From NCBI RefSeq assembly GCF_019263705.2, contig NZ_JADQDK010000001.1:2914001-2978000 (forward strand): a stretch of DNA of 64,000 nucleotides, given 5' to 3'. Each line of letters begins with the position of its first letter. Position 1 is the first letter of the stretch. The stretch comes from Pseudonocardia abyssalis (lineage in GTDB: Bacteria; Actinomycetota; Actinomycetes; Mycobacteriales; Pseudonocardiaceae). The translations under genes and the position numbers were made by a program. Below the pieces are notes generated by a model that was given only the letters and a program-made list of their open reading frames with translations, did no database searches and was not told the DNA's origin. Below, in pieces: positions 10,169-15,139 of the stretch.

Positions 10169-12112
10169 TCAGAGGTTCTCGATCTCCACCGGCTCGATGC
10201 CCTCGTCCGCGGGCAGGTCGAAGCCGAGGACCTGGGCGTAGAAGCTCAGCTCGGCGTCCAGTGCGCGGCGGATGTTCTCCGCGCGCCGGAAGCCGTGCTG
10301 CTCGCCGTCGAAGAGCAGATAGGCGACCGGGACGCCCTTGGCCCGGAGGGCGTCGACGATCATCTCCGACTGCGCGGGCGGCACGATCGCGTCCTCCGCG
10401 CCCTGCAGCACGATCAGCGGGGCGGAGAACTGCGTGAGCTGGTGGATCGGCGAGCGCTCGACGTAGGTGTCGCGGTCCTGCGGGTACGGCCCGACGAGGC
10501 GGTCGAGGTAGCGGCTCTCGAACTTGTGCGTGTCGCGGGCGAGTGCCTCCAGGTCGGCGACGCCGAAGTGGTCGGCCCCCGCCGCGAACGGCGACTCCGC
10601 CCTGGCCAGCGCGGAGAGCACCGTGAACCCGCCCGCCGAGCCGCCGCGGATGAGCAGGCGCGCGGGGTCGGCGCGGCCGGTGTCGGCGAGGCGGCGGGCC
10701 ACGGCGAGGCAGTCGGCGACTTCGATCACGCCCCACTGCCCGAGCAGCTCCTCGCGGTAGGCGCGGCCGTAACCGGTGGAGCCGCCGTGGTCGACGCTGA
10801 CGACGGCGAACCCGCGGCTCGTCCAGTACTGGGTGGCCGGAGAGAACGACGACGACGCCGCGGCGGTCGGCCCGCCGTGGATGACGACGACCAGCGGCGG
10901 CGCGTCGCCCTCGGGACCGGTGTGGGTGGCGCTGGCCGGGGCGAAGTACAGGGCGTGGGCGGTGCGGGGCTCCCCCGCGGCGTCGACCGACGGGAACGTC
11001 AGGTGCTCGGCCACCGCGACGCCCGCCGGGTCCAGGCCCAGGTCGCGCGGCGCGCACAGCGTGACGACGGCGGCGTCGGAGTCGGGCCCGGGCGGGGTGA
11101 CCCGGTAGACGCCCGGCTCCGCGGTCGGCGTCCCGGCGACGACGACGGCCGAGCCGCCCGCCGAGCGCACCGCGCCGACCTCGCAGAACGGCAGGTCCAG
11201 GTCGGCGATCAGGCCGCCGGTGCCGCGGACGGCGAGCGCGTCGGAGCCGGCGCGGCGACGGGCGAACACCACCGAGCCGTCGGCCAGCACGGCGTAGCGC
11301 GAGCCGGCCAGGCGCCACTCCGGCACCCCGACCTCGGCGTCGATCCGCACGATCGGCTCGATGTCGGAGCCGGGCAGCCAGCGGTAGAGGTTCCACCAGT
11401 CGGTGCGGTCGGAGACGAACCACAGCGAGCCGTCGGGCATCCACGACGGCTCCGACACCGACTCCCACGGCCCGCCCGCGACCACCGTCTCCTCCCCCGT
11501 CGCCAGGTCGCGCACGACGAGCTCGACGGCGTCCCACGGCATCGACGGGTGGTTCCACTGCAGCCAGGCCAGCGTCGTGCCATCGGGATCCAGGCGGGGT
11601 GCGGCGACGAAGTCGGGTCCGGTGACCAGCACCTCCGGCTCGTCGGTCGGCGCATGGGCGGCGAGGCGGACGATCTCGTTGCGCGGTTCCCCGTCGCCGT
11701 GGCGCTCCCGGACGCAGACGATCACGTCGCCGTGCACGTCCCCGTCGGCGTAGCGGTCGCCCCGCTCGACCGCGGGGGCCGGCGTCAGCGCCTGCACCGC
11801 ACCGTCCGCCAGCCGGTACAGCCGCTGGTCGGCCCATTCGGTGAACCAGACGACGCCGTCGAGCACCCACCAGGCGCCGCCGCCGTACTCGTGCACCCCG
11901 GTGCGGGCGTTCGAGCCGTCGGGCAGCAGGTCGGTGACGGCCCCGTCGGCCGCGCGGCGGACCAGCTGGGTGCGGCCGCCGTCGGCGGGCCGGGCCTCGG
12001 ACCAGTACACCTCGGCCCCGTCGACGCGGACCTCGGCGAGCGACACGGCCGCGGCGACGACGAGCTCGGAGGTGATCGGGGTGGGCCAGGATCCGAACGG
12101 GGCGATCGTCAC
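10169..12112 (-). CDS. S9-family prolyl oligopeptidase (dipeptidyl aminopeptidase/acylaminoacyl-peptidase type)
   Basis: A 647-aa serine peptidase. The N-terminal two thirds form a beta-propeller-like domain (repeated blades such as RLDPDGTTLAWLQWNHP and PSWMPDGSLWFVSDRTD). The C-terminal alpha/beta-hydrolase domain has the oxyanion/HGGP element (VVIHGGPT), the nucleophile GGSAGG, the acid Asp in GAEDAIVPP and the catalytic His in GEQHGF. No signal peptide is visible, so it is probably cytosolic and trims short peptides. Start ATG at 12112. It lies 10 bp downstream of the small CxxC protein that ends the redox operon, so read-through from that operon is possible. Confidence 0.92.
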   Translation of the reverse strand: MTIAPFGSWPTPITSELVVAAAVSLAEVRVDGAEVYWSEARPADGGRTQLVRRAADGAVTDLLPDGSNARTGVHEYGGGAWWVLDGVVWFTEWADQRLYRLADGAVQALTPAPAVERGDRYADGDVHGDVIVCVRERHGDGEPRNEIVRLAAHAPTDEPEVLVTGPDFVAAPRLDPDGTTLAWLQWNHPSMPWDAVELVVRDLATGEETVVAGGPWESVSEPSWMPDGSLWFVSDRTDWWNLYRWLPGSDIEPIVRIDAEVGVPEWRLAGSRYAVLADGSVVFARRRAGSDALAVRGTGGLIADLDLPFCEVGAVRSAGGSAVVVAGTPTAEPGVYRVTPPGPDSDAAVVTLCAPRDLGLDPAGVAVAEHLTFPSVDAAGEPRTAHALYFAPASATHTGPEGDAPPLVVVIHGGPTAAASSSFSPATQYWTSRGFAVVSVDHGGSTGYGRAYREELLGQWGVIEVADCLAVARRLADTGRADPARLLIRGGSAGGFTVLSALARAESPFAAGADHFGVADLEALARDTHKFESRYLDRLVGPYPQDRDTYVERSPIHQLTQFSAPLIVLQGAEDAIVPPAQSEMIVDALRAKGVPVAYLLFDGEQHGFRRAENIRRALDAELSFYAQVLGFDLPADEGIEPVEIENL

Positions 12113-12122
12113 GGACCCAACG

Positions 12123-12437
12123 CTAGTGTCTGGCGGTCCGGAAAGCGCTCCACAGCAGCGCCACGGCCTCCCGCGCCGCCCCGGGGCGAACGACGGGCAG
12201 CACGCCGACCGCGCCGGTCAGCCCCGGCCACCAGCGGATCGACCCGTCGCGGCGGACCGTGCCCAGCGCGGGCGTCGCGCAGCGGCGCACGGCGGCCGGG
12301 ACGGAGGCCGGGAGCTCCGGGTCGCGGCAGGTGCGCACCGTGACGGGCACGCGCAGCAGCTCGGGTAGCTCGCGCGCGATCTCCGAGCAGCTCGGGCAGG
12401 ACACGTCGTAGACGGCGACGACCGAGACCGTTCTCAC
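12123..12437 (-). CDS. Small thioredoxin-like CxxC protein (last gene of redox operon)
   Basis: A 104-aa cytosolic-looking protein with a CPSC motif close to the N-terminus (VYDVSCPSCSEIAREL) and two later cysteines (RTCRDPEL, RRCATPALG). The ATPALG segment resembles the cis-Pro region of thioredoxin folds (a small TlpA/glutaredoxin-like domain). The GTG start at 12437 overlaps the TGA of the upstream membrane protein (GTGA), so it is translationally coupled and reading depends on ribosomes reaching the end of that interrupted gene. It probably exchanges electrons with the membrane and exported partners of the same operon. No exact family is recognised. Confidence 0.75.
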   Translation of the reverse strand: MRTVSVVAVYDVSCPSCSEIARELPELLRVPVTVRTCRDPELPASVPAAVRRCATPALGTVRRDGSIRWWPGLTGAVGVLPVVRPGAAREAVALLWSAFRTARH

Positions 12438-13147
12438 GCCCCCAGCATGACAACGACCAGCGACCCGACGACCGTCAGGGCCAGCAGCGGGCGGACCCGG
12501 CGCTCCGCCCCCGTCCACACCTCGGTCCAGCCCCCGTCGGAGCTCCAGGCGTTCGACAGCAGCGGCATCGCGAGGCGCCCCAGCGCGAACCCGCCCGCCA
12601 CGGCGAACGCCGCCGGGAACGGGACGACCAGCACGACCGCGAGCAGCACCAGGTGCGGCAGCGCCGACGGCGAGTAGGTGCGCATCCCGGTGCCCATCTC
12701 GAACCCGAACTGCAGCGCCCCCCACTCGCGCAGGTGCTGCACGTCCTCCGGCACCAGCCGCGCGTTCTCCGGCACCGGGAACGACAGCAGACCGCACTCG
12801 CGCAGCAGCACCGCGAGCGCGGCGACGCCGAACAGTCCCCAGCGCACCGGGGCGGGCACGAGCGCCTGCGGGATCGCCCCGACGACGCCCGCGACGAACG
12901 CCACGAGCGCCGCACCGAGGAGCAGGCCGGCACCGAAGTACCGCACGACCGGGGAACCGCGCCAGACCGACGCGCTCAGCAGGAACGCCGAGTTGTGGCT
13001 TCAAGTGCTGCCGGAGTTGGCGAACCCGGCACCGGCGCCGGCCACCGCCGCGAGCAGGAACATCGCGGGGAGCCACGCGCCGAGCACGGCGAGCCCGAGC
13101 AGCACCACCGCGGTGGTGACCGGGTGCAGCGCGCTGCGCAGCGTCAT
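12434..13147 (-). pseudogene. Polytopic membrane protein with in-frame TGA at codon 49 (nonsense mutation or recoded codon)
   Basis: From the ATG at 13147 to the TGA at 12434 there are 238 codons in one frame, interrupted only by TGA at 13001-13003 (codon 49). The reading frame, high-GC third positions and membrane-protein character continue unchanged on both sides: FANSGST before and SHNSAFLLSASVW after. About five hydrophobic helices are present, with one Cys (RECGLL, codon 118). It resembles thiol-redox membrane proteins of the CcdA/MauF type only loosely. The ATG lies 8 bp after the Tat-protein gene and the true stop overlaps the CPSC-protein start. The options are a recent nonsense mutation (TGG Trp is one base away), selenocysteine insertion, read-through, or separate translation of the 170-aa 3' part from GTG 12946. 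Confidence 0.7.
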
Positions 13148-13155
13148 CGACGGGG

Positions 13156-13902
13156 TCAGCGCCCGGCCGGGAAGCGCGCGCCGAAGCCGGAGAGCAGACC
13201 CCCGCCGCTCTCGTCGTCGTCGGACCCGCTCCGCCCGCCGCCGGACTCCTCACCGCGGCCCGACCCGCCACCTCCGGACTCGTCCCCATGGCCGGACTGC
13301 TCACCGCGGCCGGACCCGGTGCCGCCCGAGGACTCCTCCGCGGGCTCGGGGGCCGGGGTGTTCGCGGGCGACCCGGCGGGCACCGGGCACGCGGCGATCG
13401 TGATGCCCCGGTACTCGGTGCCGTCGGCGTAGACGACCGACGTGGTCGCGTCGGAGCAGCGGTAGCCGTTCCAGCGCCAGGCGTTGCGGCCGTGGCAGCT
13501 CTGGGTGACCCGCGTCGACTCGAAGGCGTCGGGCCCGTCCTTGTAGCTGCCCTCGCGGTGGTAGCCGTCGGAGCAGGGGAACCCGCCGCGGCGCCAGCCT
13601 CCGTAGCAGAGCGCGGTGCCGGTCGAGGGCCAGTTGTCGGCCTCCTCGCGGTAGCTCTCCGGCTTGCAGCCCATGTGCTCGGACATGTCGTCGCCCTCGG
13701 TGCTCGGCTGCGCCGCGGCGGCCTCGCGCCGGGCCAGGTACCAGTCCAGCGGCACCAGCGCGGCGGCGGCCGCGGCGATGACGAGGCCGCGCAGCACCGT
13801 GCGGCGGCTGGGACGGACGGAGCGGATGTGGGCGACGACCGCACTGGGCGTCGCGCCCACGGGCGGCTGCGCCGCCGTGGGGATCTCGTCGAGCCGCGTC
13901 AT
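13156..13902 (-). CDS. Tat-exported Cys-rich protein with Gly/Ser/Glu-rich tail
   Basis: A 248-aa protein. A 30-aa cytosolic leader precedes a twin-arginine motif (PSRRTVLRG) and a hydrophobic helix of about 20 residues, typical of Tat export of a folded, often cofactor-bearing protein. The central domain (about residues 75-175) has six cysteines (MGCKP, LCYGG, FPCSDG, QSCHGR, YRCSDA, AACPVP) and is rich in aromatic residues, with Trp in CYGGWRRGG and NAWRWNG. The last 75 residues are a low-complexity Gly/Ser/Glu/Arg tail. The Tat signal, disulfides and exposed Trp residues next to thioredoxin-like and membrane genes recall the light chain of methylamine dehydrogenase (MauA), whose cofactor is made from two Trp. 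I cannot confirm homology. ATG overlaps the previous stop (ATGA). Confidence 0.75.
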   Translation of the reverse strand: MTRLDEIPTAAQPPVGATPSAVVAHIRSVRPSRRTVLRGLVIAAAAAALVPLDWYLARREAAAAQPSTEGDDMSEHMGCKPESYREEADNWPSTGTALCYGGWRRGGFPCSDGYHREGSYKDGPDAFESTRVTQSCHGRNAWRWNGYRCSDATTSVVYADGTEYRGITIAACPVPAGSPANTPAPEPAEESSGGTGSGRGEQSGHGDESGGGGSGRGEESGGGRSGSDDDESGGGLLSGFGARFPAGR

Positions 13903-14393
13903 GCCCGGGCCACCTCGTGTTCCGCGATCAGGTCGAGCAGCAGGCCGCGGACGTCGGTGTCGGCGTAGACGAAGCGGCGATGGGTCACGACGCCGCGGGC
14001 GTCGAGGGCGAGCACGGTCGGCGAGTAGCCCTCGAACAGGGCGGCGCGGACGTCGTGGTCGACGACGAGCTCCGCGAGGCTCTCGCCGAAGCCGGCCCGG
14101 TCGGCCACCGCGGCGAACCGGACACCCGGGCGACTGACCTCACCGAGGAGGGCGTGGACCTCGTGGCACTGGCTGCAGTCGGCGTCGATCACGGCGACGA
14201 TCGCGCCGCTCTCCCCCGGACGGGGCCGGACCGCGGCGGGCGCCGGACGACCGACGACCGGCGCGTAGCCCGACAGCTCGGCGGCGGGGCCGGACTCCAG
14301 CGCCCGCACCCGGGCGTACACGGCGACGAGGGCGACCAGGGCGAACAGGGCGACGAGCAGCGCGAGCAGCGCGACGGCGAGGGGCAGCGTCAT
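13899..14393 (-). CDS. Membrane-anchored thioredoxin-like protein (MauD/TlpA-like)
   Basis: A 164-aa protein with one N-terminal membrane helix (about residues 2-30) and a short linker. A thioredoxin-like domain follows, with the active-site motif DADCSQCHEVHALL near residue 83 and a strand that looks like the cis-Pro element (GYSPTVLALDARG). The topology places the CSQC site outside the cytoplasm, where it could reduce or isomerise disulfides of the Tat-exported partner encoded next (overlap ATGA). MauD, an accessory protein for methylamine dehydrogenase maturation, has this architecture. The ATG at 14393 shares one base with the preceding stop (TGATG). Confidence 0.8.
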   Translation of the reverse strand: MTLPLAVALLALLVALFALVALVAVYARVRALESGPAAELSGYAPVVGRPAPAAVRPRPGESGAIVAVIDADCSQCHEVHALLGEVSRPGVRFAAVADRAGFGESLAELVVDHDVRAALFEGYSPTVLALDARGVVTHRRFVYADTDVRGLLLDLIAEHEVARA

Positions 14394-15139
14394 CAGGCCG
14401 TCCACCGTCCGGTCAGCGCGCCGAGCGCGTCGACGACCTGGTCCTCACTCATCGACGTGGCCGCGCGGCCGGACTCCGGGCCGAGCAGCACCAGGTCCAT
14501 CGCGAGGCTCTCGCCGGCGAGGATGAACCGCCACCGGTGCGGGCTGTCGGCGGCGAGCGTCGTGGCCCGGTCGTCGAGCAGCCGCCCGGCCCGCCACAGC
14601 TCGCCGCCGCCCACGGGGAGGCCCGACCACTCCGGCAGGCTCGGCAGGACGTCGACGGAGCGGCGGACGATCAGCGTCGCCGCCTCGCTCTGCCCGATCA
14701 GGGCGACGTCGGGCTGCGACACCAGCATCGGCGACGCCGCCGTCAGCGCCGCGCCGCGCGGGCCGTCCTCGTAGCGGAAGGAGGTGAGCATCGTGCTGAC
14801 GCCCATGAGGTCCGGGGCGGGGCCGCCGAACCAGGTGGTGGCCTCGTGGTGCGGGCCCGCGAGGACGAGCGCGGACTCGGAGCGGTCGGGCGCCTCGTAG
14901 ACGACGGCGTCGTAGCCGCGCATCGGCTGCACGCGCTCGGTCGCGCCGGGCAGGACGTGCGTCGGGATCACGCGGTGCTGGCCGAGCGGGGCGAGGAAGA
15001 ACTGCCGCGACAGGTACGGGCCGGAGAAGCGGGTGGTGCCGAACCACCGGAAGTCACCGAACGCGTCGGGGACCTCGAGGTCCACCGGTGCGCCCGAGGG
15101 GGCGACCAGTGAGACCGCCCGGGTGGTCGAAGCCACCAT
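14393..15139 (-). CDS. Uncharacterised protein, first gene of the redox operon
   Basis: A 248-aa, apparently soluble protein without signal peptide, membrane helix or Cys residues. Notable blocks are FGDFRWFGTTRFSGPYLSRQ near residue 30, GPHHEATTWFGG near 110 and ESLAMDLVLLG near 205. I do not recognise the family. It is followed without a gap by the membrane thioredoxin-like gene, so it belongs to the same transcription unit and probably assists the same exported protein. A perfect 7-bp inverted repeat (GGGAGCC...GGCTCCC, 15162-15179) lies 23 bp upstream of its ATG and may be an operator. Confidence 0.75.
   Translation of the reverse strand: MVASTTRAVSLVAPSGAPVDLEVPDAFGDFRWFGTTRFSGPYLSRQFFLAPLGQHRVIPTHVLPGATERVQPMRGYDAVVYEAPDRSESALVLAGPHHEATTWFGGPAPDLMGVSTMLTSFRYEDGPRGAALTAASPMLVSQPDVALIGQSEAATLIVRRSVDVLPSLPEWSGLPVGGGELWRAGRLLDDRATTLAADSPHRWRFILAGESLAMDLVLLGPESGRAATSMSEDQVVDALGALTGRWTA

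Follow-up and report, generated by a model that had tools for sequence, protein, structure and literature searches.

Is the TGA triplet that interrupts a membrane-protein gene of Pseudonocardia abyssalis a selenocysteine (Sec) codon, an instance of some other recoding, or the trace of a recent nonsense mutation? In the window (the whole stretch of 64,000 nucleotides analysed here) the frame 12434-13147 of the minus strand contains a single TGA, at 13001-13003, which is codon 49 of 237, and is otherwise open. The original prediction of a frame that is intact except for this codon and coupled to both of its neighbours was confirmed: the stop of the upstream gene (13156-13158) is separated by an 8-nt gap from the ATG at 13147, and the 3' end of the gene overlaps the start of the next one as GTGA. 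The in-frame TGA is real and not a fresh mutation, and the gene almost certainly encodes a selenoprotein, the actual insertion of Sec being deduced from comparison of sequences. The features discussed below are the following:

14393..15139, minus strand: first gene of the conserved operon (tblastn matches in 62 of 86 loci; ATG start inferred)
13899..14405, minus strand: thioredoxin-like operon partner containing CSQC; its N-terminus is hydrophobic, a putative membrane anchor (tblastn matches in relatives)
13156..13902, minus strand: Cys-rich operon partner with a twin-arginine signal (tblastn matches in relatives)
12434..13147, minus strand: putative selenoprotein gene, predicted membrane protein (237 codons and stop, Sec at codon 49)
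13001..13003, minus strand: UGA predicted to be read as selenocysteine, U49 (TGA in 103 of 110 loci; TAA, TAG or Cys in none)
12975..12992, minus strand: hairpin of the original prediction, accessory or incidental (89.5% of cells paired)
12958..12974, minus strand: hairpin proposed as the bacterial SECIS element (loop GGUCU, 12964-12968, on a 6-bp stem)
12123..12437, minus strand: short thioredoxin-like operon partner with CPSC (weak Thioredoxin_4 match, E 0.097; tblastn matches in relatives)

Conservation of the TGA codon among relatives

The 188 residues that follow the TGA were used as a query against 62 Pseudonocardia genomes. A match was found in 32 of them, and in 22 of these 32 the open frame around it measures exactly 188 codons, i.e. 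there is a stop at the same place. A scan of genomes of named species retained 80 loci from 97 relatives, which together with 30 loci from the genus search make up a set of 110, with some genomes present in both parts. In this set, where the codon was tallied conditionally on the motif SGSx?[ST]xNSA, the column is occupied by TGA in 103 loci (79 of the 80 named and 24 of the 30 genus loci) and by TAA, TAG or a Cys codon in none. The remaining seven loci lack the motif: four are diverged Pseudonocardia homologues with neither stop nor motif (L025, L027, L029 and L030), two have a disturbed frame (L026 and L070), and one is matched only beyond the TGA column (L028). The 79 named loci with TGA represent seven orders in two classes and include 24 named genera, nine of the loci having no genus assigned by name. 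Throughout the 103 loci the residues S-4, G-3, S-2, N+3, S+4 and A+5 around the codon are invariant, A+5 being variable in some more divergent members from a sample of the class. In that class sample 17 family matches were found in 14 genomes, with TGA inside every one; several of these 14 genomes also occur in the named or genus set, so that the sets are not independent. Three genomes (G294, G262 and G154) carry two copies of the TGA-containing gene each.

The original prediction preferred a simpler explanation, mutation of TGG (Trp) to TGA, which is rejected by this distribution; Trp occupies the codon in a single one of 150 listed relatives, P0123, encoded on a metagenome contig of 921 bases. 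These relatives come from a search of 5.8 billion proteins that returned 424 relatives (best 120 of 424 listed) and from a search of the same database with a 45-row profile that returned 417 (best 120 of 417 listed). P0123 is the only full-length homologue among the relatives listed, i.e. the only one that spans the TGA column; in the other 149, with lengths of 153-188 aa, the motif is missing at this column. They include the shortened database version of the window's own protein (P0002). In the listed entries the family is represented only by shortened proteins named "hypothetical" or "DUF1772 domain-containing". A Cys form of the close family was found neither in the 110 loci nor among the relatives listed (best 120 of 417); a complete Cys form that was about as closely related would be expected to rank near the top, as P0123 did.

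Co-occurrence with the selenocysteine machinery

The genome of P. abyssalis contains a complete Sec machinery: a tRNA-Sec at C1:3792551-3792642 (75.1 bits, cut-off 47) and, less than 10 kb from it, selD, selA and selB, all above the NCBIfam cut-offs (388, 388 and 270 bits for SelD, SelA and SelB, respectively). The earlier remark that the window holds no sel genes is true of the window and yet uninformative, since these genes sit elsewhere in the genome, where the search that the original prediction recommended found selA, selB, selD and tRNA-Sec. Both findings that it had named as speaking against Sec, a uniform Trp in homologues and missing sel genes, turned out to be the opposite of what is observed, and among the alternatives that it offered the selenocysteine reading is strongly supported.

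Within the genus, tRNA-Sec was detected in 56 of 62 genomes and SelB (E<=1e-66) in 50 of 62; for the 24 TGA carriers the numbers at the same thresholds are 23 and 22, with both missing from G055 (72% complete) and SelB alone from G045 (89% complete, fragmented). Since Sec decoding is the rule in Pseudonocardia, the co-occurrence there carries little weight on its own. The class sample of 394 genomes provides a stronger test: tRNA-Sec is present in 14 of 14 TGA carriers versus 108 of 394 genomes overall (hypergeometric 7e-9, treating genomes as unrelated and thus ignoring kinship). We also tested 50 of the 62 named TGA loci from outside Pseudonocardia, each from a different genome, and found tRNA-Sec in 49 and SelB (E<=1e-64) in 45; the single carrier without tRNA-Sec, G087, possesses SelB. 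Loss of the codon was seen as well: G060, in which neither tRNA-Sec nor selB passed the thresholds, carries a homologue (L025) that lacks both the Sec codon and the motif, and in L027, L029 and L030 the Sec codon has been lost though their genomes have tRNA-Sec.

The TGA gene and the decoding genes are also found close together. In six of the 14 class-sample carriers the TGA gene lies about 2-8 kb from tRNA-Sec, and in Streptomyces uncialis (L078) the two are located within the same 6.5 kb. In Phytoactinopolyspora (L155) a selA-selB-selD-tRNASec block (selA and selD assigned by Pfam, selB by the SelB search and the first operon gene by tblastn) adjoins the divergent operon, whose order is the first operon gene, the thioredoxin-like protein, the Tat protein and the TGA gene. 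In L157, L158 and L160 the operon is near genes that are selD-like as judged from their first residues, and in L157 and L158 a selA-like gene, judged likewise, and tRNA-Sec are nearby too.

The FdhA-like gene of P. abyssalis (G000:C1:1759983-1761839, L128; 617 bits, below the family cut-off of 666) has one in-frame TGA, in the context SNNVDSCNRT-U-HAPS. In the other 13 class-sample carriers, by contrast with this genome, no TGA was found inside the FdhA-like matches (E<=1e-60; 13/13). Therefore, in those 13 carriers it may be the TGA gene rather than a Sec-containing formate dehydrogenase that maintains Sec decoding. The family thus offers a concrete substrate of Sec decoding where FdhA-like genes have no TGA, and it may help to explain the retention of the Sec machinery in many soil bacteria.

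A candidate SECIS element downstream of the UGA

RNAalifold applied to 70 distinct sequences predicted one hairpin, in which columns 30-35, counted from the T of TGA, pair with columns 41-46; in the window 12974-12969 pairs with 12963-12958. This hairpin has six base pairs and a 5-nt loop, GGUCU, located 32 nt after the UGA, with a folding energy of -9.4 kcal/mol. In 68 aligned rows 99.5% of the 408 cells are paired, a value reached by none of 500 shuffles, while slid versions of the stem are only 29-52% paired. In 59 of the 68 rows the loop reads GGUCU; its second base is G in all 68, and the base that follows is U in 64 and G in four. Two of five covariation measures were not above the shuffles, namely pairs with two-sided changes (500/500) and further pair types (499/500). 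The one pair that changes on both sides (G-C in 33 rows, U-A in 19, U-G in 15, other in 1) joins codon 59 to the third base of Arg63, as GCG with CGC and as TCG with CGA or CGG; as the switch at base 31 is one event on the tree, this two-sided change is not counted as independent evidence. In the group with G, Arg63 is encoded by CGC in 31 of 31 rows, versus 147 of 388 for other Arg codons of the same genes, and in the group with U in 0 of 35 rows, versus 187 of 518. In the U group the third base of Arg63 has undergone at least 10 changes on the tree, never to C. A hairpin still forms in the divergent L143, which encodes VRPS under it in place of VWRG.

The apex GGUCUG is common to this hairpin, to that of the FdhA gene of the same genome (GGUCGUC-GGUCU-GACGGCC) and to E. 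coli fdhF. Sec-FdhA thus shares the in-frame UGA and, after it, a hairpin of this apex, although the protein is unrelated to the family described here. The element fits the bacterial SECIS model as published in PMC13188914. Judged by single-sequence folding energy the region is unremarkable (z -0.72 for 48 nt), which bears out the suspicion voiced in the original prediction that such hairpins are common at this GC content. The hairpin that it singled out, 12975-12992, does exist, directly 5' of the candidate element, and folded alone has a z of -2.83, but it is not the best supported one, with 89.5% of cells paired as opposed to 99.5%. The SECIS element is likely the hairpin 12958-12974, according to the pattern of pairing across relatives.

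Alternative explanations of the in-frame UGA

A fresh TGG to TGA nonsense mutation, or a sequencing error, in a gene that is dying in this strain could appeal to the Trp at the column in the metagenomic P0123, but it is vanishingly improbable: 103 of the 110 loci, which stem from many assemblies, agree in having TGA at this column, 24 named genera are represented among them, and the protein sequence is conserved on both sides of the codon. Databases annotate the region differently, in accord with two proteins, a 48-codon leader that ends at the UGA and a protein of about 170 aa initiated from an internal GTG, and the 149 of 150 listed relatives that begin beyond the motif agree with this view. 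To such an arrangement we assign a small probability: neither TAA nor TAG takes the place of TGA in any of the 103 loci with the motif, residues on both sides of the codon are conserved, and the carriers have the Sec machinery, which a leader stop would not need. It is very improbable, too, that the UGA is read through in another way, by a near-cognate Trp or Cys tRNA or by programmed low-level read-through. The Trp of P0123 can be cited in its favour; against it, tRNA-Sec or SelB is present in 14 of 14 class-sample carriers and in all 50 of the named carriers tested, the only exception in the genus set (G055) is an incomplete genome, and the downstream hairpin both fits the SECIS model and has the apex seen in FdhA genes. 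We propose instead that SelB and Sec-tRNA(Sec) would insert selenocysteine at UGA49 in response to the hairpin with the loop GGUCU that lies 27-43 nt downstream of the UGA.

Operon neighbours and possible function

Genes for the CSQC, Tat Cys-rich and CPSC proteins were found by tblastn near the homologues in Pseudonocardia, Actinomadura, Micromonospora, Nonomuraea and others, if not at every locus. A Tat-signal Cys-rich gene, detected by regular expression, immediately precedes the TGA gene in 70 of the 79 named loci; in 26 aligned proteins Cys99, Cys110, Cys136, Cys149 and Cys172 as well as Trp142 and Trp144 are invariant. In L105 (1755-2672) this partner ends in peptidoglycan-binding domains according to Pfam, and hence presumably acts outside the cell. 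Peptidoglycan-binding repeats are likewise apparent by eye in the partners from L079 and L107. At the position of the CSQC protein, L158 has a gene with a weak match to Redoxin (22.1 bits, cut-off 26.6). Just downstream of the operon the window contains a large gene that looks peptidase-like (10169-12112, minus strand), which stands beside the operon in many Pseudonocardia loci.

The AlphaFold2 model of the protein, built with Cys at position 49, is all helical (pLDDT 93, pTM 0.91), and residue 49 falls at the beginning of the short helix 48-57, which comes after helix 29-46. Foldseek found no match to this model at E<=0.001; the hit at rank 2 is the NMR structure of CcdA (E 0.36). None of 45 family members matches the DsbD models of Pfam (DsbD_TM and DsbD_2) at E<=0.5, but DsbD_2 is reached by one of 44 members of a sister family described below (26.2 bits, cut-off 24.9). 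Sec49 is the sole conserved residue of Cys type, and all 45 members have Arg156. Pairing of U49 with Cys118, as envisaged in the original prediction, concerns the only encoded Cys of the protein, which is Cys in just 7 of 45 aligned relatives, so that such a pair is unlikely as a feature of the family. CcdA has a pair of Cys residues in its membrane domain. The family resembles CcdA/DsbD (PF02683, PF13386) in being small and polytopic and in its thioredoxin-like neighbours, but differs in having one conserved redox residue and no Cys pair; given the lack of a conserved second Cys and the invariant Arg156, we do not file it there.

We lean, by a little, towards a membrane thiol-redox carrier that serves the Tat-exported Cys-rich partner and would work like CcdA/DsbD. 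The product would cross the membrane several times, with Sec opening a short helix, and would most likely act as a transmembrane thiol-redox carrier in loose analogy to CcdA/DsbD; electrons would move between the CSQC and CPSC thioredoxin-like proteins and the Tat-exported Cys-rich protein, with both the partners and the direction suggested by the content of the operon. A selenoprotein of a different function, e.g. transport of sulfur or selenium compounds rather than electron transfer, has somewhat less than an even chance. It would agree with the absence of a confident fold or family match, and with Sec49 as the only conserved Cys-type residue next to an invariant Arg156, but less well with an operon whose products include an exported Cys-rich protein and two thioredoxin-like ones with CxxC, or with the sister-family member that reaches DsbD_2. 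Returning to the carrier, a broader and rather doubtful scenario may be considered, in which a nearly Sec-only membrane family maintains the Sec system in many actinomycetes that lack a Sec-formate dehydrogenase, and its lone Sec with the invariant Arg, in place of a second Cys, transfers electrons through the membrane for the maturation of an undescribed kind of exported Cys- and Trp-rich protein, some versions of which bind peptidoglycan.

Relationship to known selenoproteins

PMC13188914 catalogues 119 selenoprotein families, including TsoA/B/C/X/Y; no fit to the family described here was seen among them when families were compared by their descriptions. The Tso families resemble it in combining a Sec-UGA with a SECIS element (Table 1 of PMC13188914), and TsoB is presented there as rhodanese/DsbD fusion-like. 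In NCBIfam release 20, searched with three read-through members, no known selenoprotein family was matched; the best hit was a transporter model at E 0.21, i.e. at chance level. We found no published description of the family, the families of Haft and Tolstoy 2025 (mSystems) being compared via Table 1 of PMC13188914. As far as these searches reach, it is apparently an undescribed selenoprotein family, widespread in actinomycetes. The method of PMC12013277, as described there, may miss selenoproteins without Cys homologues.

In a survey from 2016 (PMC5029168), Amycolatopsis vancoresmycina DSM 44592 is listed among the "orphan SelD" organisms. The genome of A. vancoresmycina NRRL B-24208 (L059) contains the TGA gene, tRNA-Sec and SelB, a finding that bears on genomes so classed. 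PMC7176365 reports selenium-dependent formate oxidation and SelA, SelB and SelD proteins in the actinobacterium Actinomycetospora chiangmaiensis, which indicates that Sec decoding works in such bacteria. In environmental actinomycetes the operon would allow a role of Sec in thiol chemistry at the membrane to be tested directly.

A sister family with Cys or TGA

Six further, weak matches came out of the class search (L146-L151). The regions matched contain no stop, and upstream of five of them (all but L151) we found the motif TWSP-X-GxSML. X is TGA in L147, L148 and L150, whose genomes all have tRNA-Sec, and TGC in L146, with no tRNA-Sec match in the genome, and in L149, with tRNA-Sec present. 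Comparison of the sister family with the window's family by hhalign gave an E of 1.7e-15 over 155 columns. The Cys/Sec column of the sister family lies outside this alignment, and forced extension puts it three residues from the Sec49 column; the correspondence of the two as a Cys/Sec pair is thus suggestive, at the level of sequence alignment. The two families are homologous, and near its N-terminus the sister family, too, has a motif, in which Cys or TGA occurs; but this motif is another one, the hairpin is nearer to the UGA, and Cys forms are common: among the best 120 of 634 relatives of L149, 112 have the motif, with Cys in all 112, in four more the Cys sits in a variant of it, and another four begin only with the Met just past the column. 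The Cys forms L146 and L149 have a different fold in the hairpin region. L147, L148 and L150 appear to make up a second selenoprotein group, TWSP-U-GESML, with a 6-bp hairpin soon after the UGA in each of the three. The four relatives that start at a Met after the Cys/Sec column (P0189, P0191, P0199 and P0249) are possibly missed Sec forms.
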